A stretch of DNA of 15,398 nt, from positions 1 to 15,398 of the forward strand of contig CAJKOS010000025.1 in assembly GCA_905201565.1 (NCBI GenBank). Direction: 5' to 3'. Source of the stretch: an uncultured Erysipelotrichaceae bacterium (GTDB lineage: Bacteria > Bacillota_I > Bacilli_A > Erysipelotrichales > Erysipelotrichaceae). Positions 2,369 through 15,343 of the stretch are shown piece after piece (position 1 is the stretch's first letter; each line of letters opens with the position of its first letter). The position numbers and the translations under genes were made by a program. Below the pieces are notes generated by a model. The model saw only the letters and a program-made list of their open reading frames with translations, was not told the origin of the DNA and did no database searches.

Positions 2369-3896
2369 TGAGAATCTCCTTTGCGGCAGAAAGCTGCGTA
2401 TCATGTGCATCGCTCATCGCATAATCATAAATGACTTCCGCAATTGCGGCAGTATATTCTTCCTGATCCATCTGTCCATCAACCGAATAATCATGGTCTT
2501 CTTCAAAAGCTGTCCAGGCAGCCTCAGTACCCGTTGAGAAATACCCATCTGTACGATCGATATCATATCCGAAGTATTGCAGGATATATTGCATCCCTTC
2601 TACACAACCGGACACATCATCATAACCAAGCACCTCTTCTTCCATTTCCGGATAGCTGATGGTCAATGCCACTGGAAGATCCACCTCTTCATCCGGTGTG
2701 ATACCTGTACCATTAATCCATTCCTCATCCGGGGAAAGCCAGCGGGAAGCAGTATATTTAAGGGTTGAACCATCAGAGAAAGAAGCACTCACCTGGGCAG
2801 TACCCTTACCATATGTCGTTTTGCCAAGGATTGTCACATCATCCCTGTTTTCCTTCAAAGCAAGTGTCATGACCTCTGCAGCACTTGCCGTAGAGGCATC
2901 TGTCAATATGACAATATCATGGATGGCATCATTTTTATCATCCAGTGCTTTGATTTCATTGCGGCTTCCATCCGTAAACTCCTGAATCATGACAATATCT
3001 CCTTCATCGAGGAAAAAGGATGCACATTCCTGTACGGAATCAAGATATCCTCCACCATTGCCCCTTAAATCGAGAATCAGCTTCACATTGCCATTTTCCG
3101 CAACCATATCATCAAAATACGTCAGCATCTTGTCATGGGTACCAGCCCCAAACTGGTACAGCCTCATATACATGAGATCCTCATCGAGCATTTCCGCATA
3201 ACAGGTACTTTCCACCTGTCCACGTGTGACAACGATGTCCATCTCTTCCATCTTGCGCTCTACATGCAAGGTGACATCCGTTCCTTCATCGCCACCAATC
3301 CTTGAAGATATTTCATCATTGGACAGACCAGAAATATCATCCCCATCCACTTCCCGGATGACATCCCCTGCCTGCAACCCTGCCTTTTCAGCAGGTGAGT
3401 CCACAAAGACCCTTGTCACAACCGGATAGTTATCGTGCATGATGAACTCTGCACCAATACCGACATAGTCACGGTTGATTGACTGTACAAAGGCTTCATT
3501 TTCTTCTTTGGACATATATTCGGTATGGGGATCTTCTTCATTAGTGGTCATACCGGCAATTGCCTGGTCTTCAAGTCTTTCATCAAGATCTTCGATATCT
3601 TCACCAAAGTACCAGTCATTTTCCATGATGTCCTTTACCGCATCCACCTTATCCCCATGCAGTCCTAAAGCCCCACGCAAAGCAGTGCGCAAAGAACCGG
3701 TAAAGGGCAGCGGCACAAAGCTGCCAGACAACCAGCCAACGCCAAGTCCTGCCACAAGTGTCACAACCGCAATCCTCTTCCAGAAAACAACATTGCGCTT
3801 TGTATTGCGCAATTCTACTTCATCTGGCCATAAATGCCGCTTCAGCTTTATGCGATGAATCGGATCTTTTTCATTTTCTTTTGTATTGTTATCCAT
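2361..3896 (-). CDS. ctpA: Carboxyl-terminal processing protease, S41 family, with PDZ and peptidoglycan-binding domains
   Basis: A membrane-anchored serine protease of the CtpA/CtpB (Tsp/Prc) family that trims extracytoplasmic proteins. The 511-residue product has about 40 charged cytoplasmic residues, one membrane segment (about 42-60), a PDZ domain (about 140-225, with [11 protein letters not shown]), the S41 core, and a C-terminal PG_binding_1-like domain (about 435-485, YILQYFGYD to YSVDGQMD). The expected catalytic residues are visible: Ser338 in TASAAE, Lys364 in YGKG and Gln368. The start at 3896 has AGAGGA about six bases upstream. It lies 45 bases after ftsX with a hairpin in the gap, and overlaps uvrB by 8 bases. 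Linkage to ftsEX suggests processing of an FtsEX-controlled cell-wall hydrolase or its partner; that substrate is inferred, and ctpA versus ctpB naming is arbitrary. Confidence 0.95.
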
Positions 3897-10519: not shown

Positions 10520-11671
10520 TCAATTCTTCTTCCGCATCTTCATCAATGACATCACTACCGGTATGACCATCACACATAGACCAAGCCAGGCAACAGACTT
10601 TGCCCCAAAGCTGTCCATCATCCAGCCACTATAGAGAAGTGCAAGAATGCCAGCAAAGTTACCAAACACCGCATCGGTAAGACTTCTTGCTGTGTTCTTC
10701 AATTCATCCGGTACGGTATCTTCGGTAATTTCCCGCATCGTTGGCAGCATGATACCATAGCTTGCATTGGTAAACAGTGTTCCTACAATGATGAACAGCG
10801 GATCAGCAGCCACAATGACACATACCATGGTCAAAAATACTGTAAAGGCAACAAGAAACAGGCGCAGGTGCTTGTCAATCCTTGCCATCTTACCGGAAAG
10901 GAAGATGAAGAACGCCTGTAACATGACACCAAGGAAGGCATCAATACCAATTGTACCAACATCTCCTCCCACACTTTCCAAAAGTACATTCTTCAGATTG
11001 TTCACCGGTGAGATAGCAAGTCCGGTAAAGAAAAGAATGGCCAGCAGAAATAAGAATGGTCCAATTTTCAACAGTCCTGCCGGATTAGCAGGTTTCAGGG
11101 TTCTTGCCCTTTCTCCATATGGAGATTCCTTTGCCGTAAAGGCAAGGATGAAGACAAGGATGGAAAGAATACCAAAACATACCGGCAAAGCTCCAAAGCC
11201 AAGTCTGTTAACAACCTGCCCCACCACAAGCATCGCTACGGCATAGCCTGAAGAACCGATGGCACGTGCCCTTCCATAGAGTGCTGCATCGAGGTGAAAT
11301 CCCCGTAACATCCACCCATCGATGTTGGCACCAAGTGGTGAAATGAGAAATCCGGCAACCGGATATAACAAAGCTGCCGCAACCAACACATTTCCAGCAA
11401 GGAAGTATGTCACAAAGGCAAGGATGGCAGAAACCGCAAAGGCCACAAGGAACACCTTTCGGTTTGTGCGCAGTTTGTCACACTGCCCACCCCAGAAGAA
11501 AGCACCGATAAACGACAGTAACATAAATGCCGCAAGCACAAGGGAAAGGGCAGTGCTGTCCATGCCACAATTGAGCATATAGGTTGTGATAAAGCCACAA
11601 AATGAAGCATTCCATGCCCAGTACAGACCATCGAGAATGCTGAAGCGTATCAATAATTTCTCATTTATCAT
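10520..11671 (-). CDS. MFS transporter
   Basis: A 383-residue major facilitator superfamily permease with about eleven to twelve hydrophobic segments. The conserved cytoplasmic loop after the second helix reads GGQCDKLRTNRKVFL, and a second related loop, GKMARIDKHLRLFL, lies in the C-terminal half. Overall it resembles the MFS_1-like / nucleoside-symporter-like group rather than the 14-helix drug exporters; substrate and direction of transport cannot be read from sequence. The start at 11671 has AAAGGG five bases upstream, lying across the end of the preceding gene, whose stop is only eight bases away. It is therefore co-transcribed, and probably translationally coupled, with the GTPase-nuclease fusion. 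That pairing recalls ribosome-protection plus efflux gene pairs, but the link is inference. Confidence 0.88.
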   Translation of the reverse strand: MINEKLLIRFSILDGLYWAWNASFCGFITTYMLNCGMDSTALSLVLAAFMLLSFIGAFFWGGQCDKLRTNRKVFLVAFAVSAILAFVTYFLAGNVLVAAALLYPVAGFLISPLGANIDGWMLRGFHLDAALYGRARAIGSSGYAVAMLVVGQVVNRLGFGALPVCFGILSILVFILAFTAKESPYGERARTLKPANPAGLLKIGPFLFLLAILFFTGLAISPVNNLKNVLLESVGGDVGTIGIDAFLGVMLQAFFIFLSGKMARIDKHLRLFLVAFTVFLTMVCVIVAADPLFIIVGTLFTNASYGIMLPTMREITEDTVPDELKNTARSLTDAVFGNFAGILALLYSGWMMDSFGAKSVAWLGLCVMVIPVVMSLMKMRKKN

Positions 11672-11679
11672 AATTCCCT

Positions 11680-14202
11680 TTAGATATGCATCTTCAATGC
11701 AATTTCATTTTCCAATTCACGTGATGACATCCGCCTTGCCCCTCCGGCAAGCACCGCATTCTGAATCAATGCATCACTTGTCACCACCGTAAGGTCCACC
11801 TTCCCTTTCAGGTCATGAACCCTTTTTTCAATCCAGGCATCAGCGGTCATATCCGTACGTGTATAAATAATCTCAAGACCACCGCGCTTCATGCTGGAAC
11901 CGCTGTTATCCTTTCTCTGGTAGCCATCAAAGACAAGCTGGACTGGCGATTTATAATAAGCTTGATAGGCAAAGATGACATCAATCAGCTTTTCCCTGGC
12001 AACAGAAACCGCATCATCCTTATATTGTTTCATCGACTCCCAGGCATAAAGACAATTATACCCGTCAATAATCATCAACCTGTCTTTCTTTTCCATGTCT
12101 TTGATCTCAACATGTTCGCGATCATCATCTTTTTTCTTCTTTGGTACATAGTGCTTCTTCTCATTCCGGTTATTGCTGGAAGCACTCTTCAATATGCCAT
12201 CGAGATCCTTTTCCTCCACCTTCATCGTCACATGCCTGTAACCGCCTGAACTCTCTTCCTTATGCAGGTCGATATGCATATGCTTTTCAACATCAGCCCA
12301 TGGCACATAGTAACCTGCCCCATTGGCACAGAAGACTGAACCTGTCGGATTGCGCAGATCACTTTCCGGATCATAGCCTCTTTCTGCAACAATGCCTTCC
12401 TGGTTTTTCACTTCCTGATAACCGGCAAGTTCAAAGAAGAACCTTCCCCTGCCCTTTGTGTAAGCAGAAAGATCTTTCTGGTAATTCATGAGTGTTCTTA
12501 CTGGACCTTCACCCTCCACACTCTGGTATTCACCATCCATTTCGCCTACCATAACCGTACAATCCTTCTGTTCCATTTCATACAGGCATCTGGAAAGAGA
12601 TTCCTCAGGCAGGGTAATGCGGAAATGATAATATGGTTCAAGCAATACACTTTCTGCTTTCATCAATCCCTGGCGGACAGCACGGCGGGCTGCCTCGCGG
12701 AAGTCACCACCACTTGTATGTTTGAGGTTTCCTTTTGCCGCAATGAGCACAATTCTTACATCGGTGAGTGGAGACCTTGTCAATACACCTTTATGTTCAC
12801 GTGAAAGATGGGAGAGGATGGACTTTTCCCACACTGCAGATAGAGTACCGCGCGGCACTTCACTGACCACTTCTACACCACTGCCGCGCTTCAATGGTTC
12901 AAGACGGACAACAACTTCGGCATAATGGCGTAATGGTTCAAAGTGACCTACACCGATGACACTGTCCGCAATGGTTTCTGCCATGACGATACCACCTGTG
13001 CCAAAACCTACGGAAATCCCACTTCTTTCTTCGATCTTTTTCTGCAATACCTCCATCTGCATTTCACCCATGATGCGCACATGGATGGAATGATGGTCAG
13101 CGTCAAGATCAATCATCAATTGCGGGTCTTCTGAAGACAATGCTGTACAGACATCGCTGAGCTGTAACACATCCGCTCCTTCTGGCAACAGTAACTTATA
13201 GTCAAGGTATCCGTTCAATAATGGTTTCTCAGCATCCTCTTCTTCGCCAAGACCTTGTCCTGGGTAGGTGTGTTCAAGGCCTTTGAGCGTACAGATCATA
13301 CCCGCTTCTGCCTTCTGTACCATCTCATAGCTTTCTCCTGTATACAGGCGGATCTGGTCTACCTTTTCTTCTTCATCGAGTTTCTGCTTTGCGACAAGCA
13401 CACCACCTGTCACTTTGACATGGGTCAGCCGGTTGCCTTCTTTATCATTCGATATCCGGAATACCCTTGCCCCAAAAGCCTCAGGATATACCTTGTCACA
13501 TGACAAATACGATACCGCATCCAGCAGCTGCTCAACCCCTTCATTCTTCAAAGCAGATCCATATAATACAGGAAAGAATTCCCTGCTCATAAACGCTTGT
13601 TGCACAAGTGTTGCATCCAGCTCACCGCGTTCAAGATAGTCTTCCATGATTTCTTCATTGACCATGGTCAATGCGTCTTCTTTATTCTCCCAGTCTATGC
13701 ACAAAGAACTACAATGTTTCAACAAATCCTGCATGAGAGCATCTTTGCTGTGGTGGGAGATATCCATCTTGTTTACAAACAGAAGACATGGTACATCATA
13801 GTGTTCCAGGCACTTCCATATCGTTTCGGTATGGCTTTGTACACCATCCTGTCCATTGATGACAATGATTGCCATATCAAGAACCGATAGCACACGTTCC
13901 ATTTCTGCAGAAAAGTCAACATGACCAGGCGTATCAATAACAAATACCTCATCTCCTTTCCAGGAAAAACAGGCATCTTTTGCATAGATGGTAATACCGT
14001 GTTTTCTCTCTTCTTCATCAAAGTCAAGCACCGTATCCCGATGATCTACACGACCCTGTTTACGGATCTTTCCACTTTTATATAACATGCTCTCGATACA
14101 GGTTGTCTTACCCGCATCAACATGGGCCAACAGACCCGTACAAATATGTTTTGACGGGATATTTTTTGTTAAATTTTCTTTATTTTCAGACGTATTTTCC
14201 AT
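11680..14202 (-). CDS. TetM/EF-G-like ribosomal GTPase fused to a C-terminal Rae1/YacP-type NYN endonuclease
   Basis: An 840-residue translation-factor-type GTPase. The G domain has G1 AHVDAGKT (26-33), RKHGIT (66-71) at switch I, G3 DTPGH (90-94), G4 NKMD (144-147) and SAL at G5; domains II-V follow to about 660 and align with TetM/TetO (LEPYYHF, LSRCLYE, SAYTKGRGRF). The TetM tip loop YSPVS is replaced by KHTSGG (494-499). A lysine-rich charged linker (about 660-707) leads to a full NYN domain (708-840): DGYNCLYAWE (Asp713), LVFDGYQ (Asp759), TDMTADAWIEK (Asp784, Asp788) and VTSDALIQ (Asp810), closely like B. subtilis YacP/Rae1, an A-site mRNA endonuclease. The ATG at 14202 follows AAAGGGG at good spacing; a TTG at 14238 lies in the promoter. 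It is first in an operon with an MFS gene. Tetracycline resistance is not established. Confidence 0.93.
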   Translation of the reverse strand: MENTSENKENLTKNIPSKHICTGLLAHVDAGKTTCIESMLYKSGKIRKQGRVDHRDTVLDFDEEERKHGITIYAKDACFSWKGDEVFVIDTPGHVDFSAEMERVLSVLDMAIIVINGQDGVQSHTETIWKCLEHYDVPCLLFVNKMDISHHSKDALMQDLLKHCSSLCIDWENKEDALTMVNEEIMEDYLERGELDATLVQQAFMSREFFPVLYGSALKNEGVEQLLDAVSYLSCDKVYPEAFGARVFRISNDKEGNRLTHVKVTGGVLVAKQKLDEEEKVDQIRLYTGESYEMVQKAEAGMICTLKGLEHTYPGQGLGEEEDAEKPLLNGYLDYKLLLPEGADVLQLSDVCTALSSEDPQLMIDLDADHHSIHVRIMGEMQMEVLQKKIEERSGISVGFGTGGIVMAETIADSVIGVGHFEPLRHYAEVVVRLEPLKRGSGVEVVSEVPRGTLSAVWEKSILSHLSREHKGVLTRSPLTDVRIVLIAAKGNLKHTSGGDFREAARRAVRQGLMKAESVLLEPYYHFRITLPEESLSRCLYEMEQKDCTVMVGEMDGEYQSVEGEGPVRTLMNYQKDLSAYTKGRGRFFFELAGYQEVKNQEGIVAERGYDPESDLRNPTGSVFCANGAGYYVPWADVEKHMHIDLHKEESSGGYRHVTMKVEEKDLDGILKSASSNNRNEKKHYVPKKKKDDDREHVEIKDMEKKDRLMIIDGYNCLYAWESMKQYKDDAVSVAREKLIDVIFAYQAYYKSPVQLVFDGYQRKDNSGSSMKRGGLEIIYTRTDMTADAWIEKRVHDLKGKVDLTVVTSDALIQNAVLAGGARRMSSRELENEIALKMHI

Positions 14203-14217
14203 GAAAATACCCCTTTC

Positions 14218-14237
14218 TGTGCTATAATCATAGCACA
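14218..14237 (-). promoter_or_regulatory. Perfect inverted repeat over the -10, putative operator
   Basis: TGTGCTAT (14218-14225) and ATAGCACA (14230-14237) are perfect inverted arms separated by four bases. The repeat covers the -10 and reaches about to the predicted transcription start near 14220, so it would be only partly transcribed; a protein-binding operator is more likely than an RNA hairpin. No regulator gene is in the window. Confidence 0.6.
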
Positions 14238-14298: not shown

Positions 14299-15343
14299 TT
14301 ACTTTGGCAGTTTCGAATATATGTGTATTCTGAATTCGCCTTCAGGAGTTCTGTAAGCTGTAATTTTCTCCATTACCATTTTCCACAATTCATTCTTCTC
14401 CGTTGCCGTCAACTGATCATAGCTGTCGAGAATACGCTGAGTGGTAGGAATGATTTTCTCTTCTGTTGATCTCTTTTCTCTCACAGCCGATTGTTTATTC
14501 ATAAGATCTTTTTCTGATTGCTGCAGCTTTTTCATTTCCTTTTGCAGAAGATCGTTTCTCTTTGTAAACATCTCAACGGTATACGTTCCCTTTTCAAGAT
14601 GTTCACAGATTTTATTCTGCTGATTTTGTAAATCCGACAGTTGATCCTGAATAACAGAAAGGGCAATCTCGGTATTATCCGTTTGAGGCAGATTGTCTGA
14701 ACTAATTTTTATTTTATATTCTGCCAGCCATTTTTCCATAGCTGTTACAACAGATTTTTCTACTAAATCACATTTCATTGCTTTGCACTTACATCCCCTT
14801 GTCGGGCATCTATACCAAGGGGCAGTGTTTTGATTTTTCGCTGGCACATTTCTTTTTAATACAGCGCCGCATTTCTCACAAACCAGGATTGTCGAAAAAG
14901 GATTCATTAGTTTTCGTTCTGTATTTACTGAAGAATGCCCTCTGCTCCGCTGCTTTTCCTTTACCCGATTCCATTCTTCCTGTTCAATAATCGGCTCATG
15001 CAGACCACCATACAGCTCATAATCCCGGTTCAACACTCTTTTCTTGGAAAGCATTCCATCTTTTATAATACGTTTTGTAGGCTCCCGTCTCCAGCGAATT
15101 TTCCCAAGATATACCTCATTATTCAATATATTTGTGACAGATGTTTGTCCCCATGTGCCTGTCTGTGAAGGAATTTGCATTTGATTCAACTGATATGCAA
15201 TCGTGTTATACCCTATTCCTTGCTGACCATACATATTGTAAATCATTTTAACTATTTTGGCCTCTTCCGGTATTACCTTTAAACTGTTCCCTTTTTCCCC
15301 TTGTAATTTATATATCTGATAACCATATGGAGGAATTGAACCC
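14299..15343 (-). pseudogene. Large serine recombinase, 3' part only, interrupted by the IS605-like end
   Basis: The C-terminal part of a site-specific large serine recombinase (TndX/phage-integrase type). The frame reads on from the ATG at 15246 upstream to 15343 as SIPPYGYQIYKLQGEKGN and so on, matching the start of the Recombinase domain (PF07508), before hitting the IS-like end and a stop. So the ATG at 15246 is internal. Counting from it: Recombinase domain to about 95 (YNTIAYQLNQ, TNILNNEVYLG), zinc ribbon with Cys123, Cys126, Cys147 and Cys152, then a coiled coil (about 195-265). The resolvase catalytic domain with its serine nucleophile (normally about 140 residues) is missing and should lie beyond the insertion. 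The fragment is intact otherwise. It marks an integrative element whose end should be near 14240-14298. Confidence 0.85.

Follow-up and report, generated by a model that had tools for sequence, protein, structure and literature searches.

When EF-G-type translational GTPases occupy the factor site of the ribosome, their domain IV reaches into the A site. In the ribosomal-protection protein TetM, Pro509 at the tip of this domain is reported to overlap bound tetracycline (PMC7456112). Another protein of the same site, Rae1 (YacP) of Bacillus subtilis, is described as an mRNA endonuclease that acts in the ribosomal A site, to which stalled ribosomes may give it more access (PMC6613710, PMC12320835), and the substitution R166P in its C-terminal tail is reported to behave as a loss of function (PMC6613710). 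The two kinds of protein meet in a fusion that has been in print since Atkinson 2015 and, therefore, is not itself new: there, the Tet proteins of ten clostridial species are reported to carry a YacP-like NYN domain, an RNase-based resistance mechanism is suggested, and a proposal that the NYN domain serves in maturation is cited (PMC4342817). No other description of the fusion was found among the titles listed in the literature searched, in which subscription and Rae1-specific papers were only partly covered, and this agrees with the first-pass annotation of the locus considered here, which knew of no described mechanism. Our protein shares with the clostridial fusions the order of its parts, a translational GTPase followed by a YacP-like NYN domain in one frame, as well as the GTPase and NYN families involved; however, whereas Atkinson 2015 treats the clostridial proteins as tetracycline-resistance proteins (PMC4342817), the GTPase described here is not a Tet protein. 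This non-Tet GTPase, the near-absence of stand-alone Rae1 across an entire bacterial order, and a natural deletion series within one genus are what is new in the present analysis.

The window, that is, the whole stretch of 15,398 nucleotides that was analyzed, contains on its minus strand an open frame of 840 aa (14202-11680) that runs without interruption from an ATG at 14202 to a stop at 11680-11682 (Table 1). The GTPase and the nuclease had been taken to form a single frame, and so they do: no frameshift or stop separates the two halves, and the same architecture is found in relatives, which carry the same frame and thus rule out a frame artifact. GTP_EFTU and NYN_YacP are present together in 238 of the 240 best relatives (two lists of 120, precomputed Pfam domains; P0159 and P0160 each miss one of the two), so the fusion is not a matter of chance; the nearest of 21 loci compared (L001) encodes a fusion protein that is 91% identical. 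The AlphaFold2 model of the full-length protein (mean pLDDT 79.3, pTM 0.47) is mostly confident in the folded parts and mostly not in the linker, and with such a pTM, the placement of the NYN domain relative to the GTPase is not fixed by the model. In the 50 matches listed, Foldseek pairs this model with EF-G structures.

Table 1. Parts of the fusion gene and its putative ribosome-binding sequence, in positions of the window
Feature	Positions	Strand	Basis
trGTPase-NYN fusion gene, whole, 840 aa	11680..14202	-	Open frame from ATG to stop; same architecture in relatives
G domain, residues 18-231	13510..14151	-	Pfam GTP_EFTU, 2e-49; motif alignment
Domain II, residues 244-311	13270..13473	-	Weak PF22042 match, under cut-off; TetM alignment
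Domain III, residues 344-400	13003..13173	-	Weak PF14492 match, under cut-off
Domain IV, residues 423-517 (A-site arm of EF-G/TetM)	12652..12936	-	Pfam EFG_IV; missing in two reduced relatives
Domain-IV tip loop KGNLKHTSGGDFR, residues 490-502, family signature KHTxGGDF	12697..12735	-	Alignment of relatives; unlike TetM SPVSTPADF
Domain V, residues 519-601	12400..12648	-	Pfam EFG_C, 3e-15
C-terminal extension, residues 601-646, motif SVFCANGAGYYVPW...MH	12265..12402	-	Common to GTPase-only relatives; no counterpart in TetM/W/B(P)
Linker, residues 647-706, short helix 664-675	12085..12264	-	AlphaFold2 pLDDT mostly low; helix alignment
Rae1/YacP-type NYN domain, residues 710-835; D713, D759, D788, D810	11698..12075	-	PF05991, 5e-36; 5mq8/5mq9 by sequence and fold
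Putative ribosome-binding sequence AAAGGGG, 7 nt 5' of ATG	14210..14216	-	Sequence reading

The identity of the C-terminal part is clear from several directions. Residues 710-835 match NYN_YacP (PF05991) with 124.8 bits against a cut-off of 24.6 (E 5e-36), and by sequence, B. subtilis Rae1/YacP is the sole match of this part among solved structures (E 3e-15). Modeled alone, the domain has a mean pLDDT of 90.8, and the only chains retrieved by the fold search at E < 0.001 are those of 5mq8 and 5mq9, so that the NYN fold expected here is borne out by sequence and structure comparison alike. In 132 de-duplicated fused proteins, Asp713 and Asp759 are kept without exception, and Asp788 and Asp810 are kept in 131, the exception being an alignment gap. 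The first-pass annotation had described a complete YacP/Rae1-like nuclease with all its acidic residues; the acidic residues are indeed there, but completeness does not hold. The match extends over residues 3-128 of the Rae1 chain, and little of the window protein is left beyond it, from which it follows that the Rae1 C-terminal tail, the region of W164 and R166, is absent. B. subtilis Rae1 thus provides the strongest match in sequence and fold, with the NYN fold and the acidic active site in common, but it is a stand-alone protein with a tail, whereas the NYN domain of the window is tail-less and follows 700 residues of GTPase and linker. One may speculate that the GTPase stands in for the contribution of the missing tail.

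The GTPase half has the G-II-III-IV-V architecture of EF-G, with domains II and III recognized through weak matches, and G-domain motifs that align as AHVDAGKTT, GITI, DTPGH, NKMD, and GSAL. It had been labeled TetM/EF-G-like; the likeness to EF-G is confirmed by Pfam and Foldseek, and the identity as a ribosomal-protection Tet protein is not. Against NCBIfam tet_protect, the window protein scores 353.5 bits, below the cut-off of 775, whereas six Tet proteins from genomes of the same order, used as positive controls, all pass (831.9-969.7), and all six have the SPVSTP tip. In the fused set, the tip of domain IV reads KHTxGGDF, with H495 and T496 in 132 of 132 proteins, where TetM and TetW have SPVSTPADF and TetB(P) has SPASTPADF; in the alignment, the window tip has no counterpart of Ser508-Pro509-Val510 of TetM and its loop is two residues shorter. 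A tree of 45 GTPase parts, in which TetM, TetW, and TetB(P) are represented, TetO is not, and many rows are of unusual composition, sets the six Tet rows apart from the relatives, both fused and GTPase-only (100/100, on a branch of 2.56 changes), and the C-terminal extension of the relatives (SVFC..GAGY...MH) aligns with nothing in Tet proteins. Thus, TetM, TetO, TetW, and TetB(P) share with the window GTPase the EF-G-like domains and about 30% identity, but differ from it in the tip, the extension, and, TetO aside, the clade. Taken together, score, tip, tree, and extension place the GTPase in a sister family of the Tet proteins, and it is on this sister family that the fusion arose.

No description of the function of this sister family was found in the literature searched. 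Its GTPase-only members, known from Ligilactobacillus, Paenibacillus, and Subdoligranulum, keep HTxGGDF; an example of 644 aa from Ligilactobacillus salivarius pMP118 has the same tip, a SVFCAHGAGY extension, and about 40% identity over residues 18-643, but, unlike the window protein, these relatives lack the NYN domain. Judged by their sequences, they show that the GTPase would have a function of its own without the nuclease. Five genomes (G187, G110, G105, G120, and G153) contain, in addition to the fusion, a separate protein that exceeds the cut-offs of both tet_protect and tet_protect_M_W and has the SPVSTP tip.

The distribution of the nuclease across the order had been proposed as a check, and here, where NYN_YacP occurs, the fusion proves to be present nearly always instead of stand-alone yacP. 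NYN_YacP was detected in 140 of the 195 sampled genomes of the order and is lacking in 55; with open-frame length as a proxy for fusion, 128 of the 142 places in these 140 genomes lie in frames of at least 800 aa. Nine of the 14 shorter places were examined by sequence and the other five by coordinates only. They comprise two NYN-only genes (G149, G157), two reduced forms (G027, G114), a divergent one (G143), frames that reach a contig end (G059, G146, G165), frames that, by coordinates, begin at or near one (G115, G147, G168, G170), and that of G173. In G066 (locus L056), a GTPase at 443-2578 and an NYN domain at 2536-3015 occupy two overlapping frames of 712 and 160 aa, which may reflect a true split of the gene, a frameshift site, or a fault of the assembly. 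Stand-alone Rae1 is, accordingly, nearly absent from the order, with two genes shown to be stand-alone among 142 places and a third split from a neighboring GTPase frame. In the 21 genomes of the compared fusion loci, all 22 NYN_YacP places are in frames of 387-894 aa, and none is Rae1-sized. Searching with a model of the family, with the four best candidates scored per genome, gave matches at E 1e-100 in 137 of the 195 genomes, of which 134 have NYN_YacP and three do not (G084, G096, G106, each matched over 584-599 positions only); the G084 protein, the one of the three checked by sequence, exceeds the tet_protect cut-off and is a Tet protein. Under the same scoring, both halves are found in 134 genomes and neither in 52, and the six genomes that have NYN_YacP but no family-model match are those with the reduced (G027, G114), divergent (G143), NYN-only (G149, G157), and contig-cut (G165) forms. 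Among 392 sampled genomes of the phylum, 39 exceed the Pfam cut-off for NYN_YacP, with one place each, and 37 of the 39 frames are longer than 800 aa, the others being those of G027 (615) and G066 (160).

A natural deletion series was found within a single genus, where 32 of 36 genomes surveyed have NYN_YacP, at 33 places: 23 in frames of at least 800 aa (810-872), six NYN-only, two reduced, and two running to a contig end (G598, G599). The reduced proteins (603 aa in G114 and 594 aa in G027) consist of domains G, II, and III, a linker, and the NYN domain; they align up to query residues 401-405, and domains IV and V and the extension are missing (Pfam scan for G114 only), whereas motifs G1-G5 and the histidine of DTPGH are intact. 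In the 764-aa protein of G143, the GTPase motifs and the NYN domain are likewise kept, and neither domain IV nor domain V was recognized. The six NYN-only genes (G149, G157, G585, G596, G600, and G595) encode 201-218 aa. All but that of G595 are flanked by ung-like and dusB-like genes, names read from the protein sequences, as is the full fusion of G203; the same pair surrounds the full fusion of G198, with one extra gene (779 aa) ahead of the fusion, whereas other genes flank the two reduced forms and the full fusions of G112, G131, and G583. In an NYN tree that is midpoint-rooted and partly unresolved inside the genus, five NYN-only domains and eight database hits form a clade (100/99) within a genus clade (97/96) that also contains full and reduced forms. 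The NYN-only proteins start at the linker helix that precedes the NYN domain in the fusions, and none of the four aspartates is lost in any of the 73 NYN-only proteins that measure 195-215 aa among the 77 best hits.

In our reading, these five NYN-only genes probably lost their GTPase in place and retained the nuclease. Since fusions occupy several loci and the genus tree is partly unresolved, this reading draws on G203, G198, and parsimony. The alternative that NYN-only genes are ancestral stand-alone Rae1 is rejected for the main clade by the tree, the shared linker helix, and synteny, with the direction given by parsimony; the rejection does not extend to the gene of G595, which lies outside the 100/99 clade and has other neighbors. 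As a separate observation, the two reduced forms (L096 and L097, in G114 and G027) each adjoin a gene in the opposite orientation, from the same family in both (cluster c13), which, as we read it, may encode an RNA methyltransferase of the SpoU type; in B. subtilis, rae1 is reported to be co-transcribed with the methyltransferase gene yacO (PMC6613710).

What, then, does the fusion do? On balance, we lean toward the view that it is the Rae1 of its lineage, with the GTPase half serving as a ribosome-docking module for the nuclease. For the fusion, we infer ribosome binding, use of GTP, and cleavage of mRNA in the A site. The NYN domain would be the effector and, like B. subtilis Rae1, would act as an endonuclease on mRNA in the A site of the ribosome; the EF-G-like GTPase, in its GTP form, would dock at the factor site of ribosomes, probably paused ones; domain IV would probably probe or clear the A site beforehand; and hydrolysis or domain movement would then bring the flexibly tethered NYN domain to the A-site codon. 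Because domain IV and the NYN domain could hardly share the A site, either the action would be stepwise or the NYN domain would replace domain IV, and the reduced forms, in which domains IV and V are lost and the GTPase motifs and nuclease kept, favor the latter in their own lineage. These forms show that GTPase and nuclease can be retained together without the A-site arm, which favors a docking role for the GTPase. More generally, that relatives devoid of the arm or of the whole GTPase keep the nuclease suggests that the GTPase brings the nuclease to the ribosome; the same NYN-only relatives, however, imply that the GTPase is not strictly needed for the role of the nuclease, which speaks against docking. 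Also against the lineage-Rae1 reading are the 55 genomes without any NYN_YacP, the missing Rae1 tail, and the GTPase-only relatives, whose GTPase would act without a nuclease. Of the two roles previously envisaged, placement of the nuclease by GTP hydrolysis fits the forms without domains IV and V, with the use of GTP itself inferred, whereas the sensing of a blocked ribosome, if the block is a drug, finds no support in this analysis; nuclease placement fits better than drug sensing.

Among the alternatives, a ribosome-protection factor directed against an A-site blocker other than tetracycline, be it a drug, an arrested nascent chain, or a damaged tRNA, seems unlikely, yet accounts for some of the evidence. 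Domain IV would clear the site, and the NYN domain would cut if clearing fails. Indeed, domain IV is the best conserved of eight compared regions in the 132 de-duplicated fused proteins (mean 0.755), with its invariant HT tip, and, therefore, does something in most lineages; the retention of HTxGGDF in the GTPase-only relatives points to a specific task. However, the reduced proteins dispense with domains IV and V and keep the GTPase motifs and the NYN domain, G143 has no recognizable domain IV, and a resistance neighborhood is not conserved, with no neighboring family present at more than 8 of the 62 examined loci. We assign a still smaller chance to two tethered but separate activities, whereby the NYN domain would mature or degrade rRNA or tRNA, the function initially predicted for NYN domains of the YacP kind and cited by Atkinson 2015 (PMC4342817), while the GTPase would act in another step of translation. 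The tether, which is long, spanning 64-144 residues from the MH of the extension to D713 across 132 fused proteins, and mostly of low confidence in the model, would allow this, but work since then describes Rae1 as cleaving mRNA on the ribosome (PMC6613710, PMC12320835), and the two halves tend to occur both or not at all in the genomes of the order. The proposal of Atkinson 2015 (PMC4342817), a tetracycline ribosomal-protection protein to which an RNase has been added, is highly improbable here: TetM is the closest solved structure by sequence and some public records name relatives TetM, TetW, TetO, or TetS, but the tet_protect score, the tip, the separate clade, and the co-occurrence of Tet proteins in fusion-bearing genomes lead us to reject tetracycline resistance as the function.

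The literature searched gives no settled account of how Rae1 selects its ribosomes. If the whole order attaches Rae1 to a translational GTPase, ribosome choice would become open to genetics through the full, IV-V-less, and NYN-only forms. Moreover, if the docking reading is true, proteins of gut bacteria that are annotated as tetracycline resistance would be mRNA-decay factors.

The upstream region of the gene presents another facet. In relatives, the fusion gene often appears to have the promoter signature of a leaderless mRNA. An exact TATAAT ending 5-11 nt before the ATG precedes 8 of the 18 fusion genes of set 1 (18 usable of 22 loci) versus none of 207 control frames from other genes of the same loci, and 3 of 37 in set 2 (37 of 40 loci) versus 5 of 241, which alone is not significant (p 0.076); the relatives are not independent. 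With ten TATAAT variants, chosen after set 1 had been seen, the counts are 12/18 versus 7/207 and 15/37 versus 19/241. Shine-Dalgarno-like words are rarer upstream of the fusion than of the controls (1/18 versus 85/207 in set 1 and 5/37 versus 119/241 in set 2). For targets, the last ATG upstream of the P-loop was taken as the start, and for controls, the first ATG; when the first ATG is used for both, a box 3-14 nt before the start is seen in 7 of 18 versus 0 of 207 in set 1. The loci with an exact box and no Shine-Dalgarno-like word flagged are L004, L006, L008, L009, L010, L015, L016, and L020, as well as L126, L136, and L149. A bolder version of the docking reading, which we offer tentatively and regard as doubtful, is a GTP-driven A-site nuclease: the EF-G-type GTPase would carry Rae1 to stalled ribosomes, the NYN domain would replace the arm in the relatives without domains IV and V, and the leaderless mRNA in many relatives would let the factor be made when ordinary initiation fails. 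The window copy has a Shine-Dalgarno sequence and lacks the leaderless signature. Adjoining the ribosome-binding sequence on its upstream side, at 14218-14237, is a perfect 8-bp palindrome, TGTGCTAT-GATT-ATAGCACA, which none of 59 upstream stretches from relatives contains and which could be read as operator-like or as a hairpin.

An acquired resistance or defense cassette finds no support in the genes around the fusion, since neighbors are not conserved across the 62 loci. In the window, an MFS transporter gene (10520-11671) on the same strand begins 8 bp past the fusion stop, but the MFS cluster has only two members among the 62 loci, so that this pairing is not general. On the other side, a frame at 14299-15246, ending 96 bp upstream of the fusion gene, encodes the C-terminal parts of a serine recombinase (Recombinase, Zn_ribbon_recom) without the N-terminal catalytic domain, and may be the end or a remnant of an integrated element. 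Beside the GTPase-only relative on L. salivarius pMP118 lies a plasmid copy of rpsN (L046, 3526-3795).
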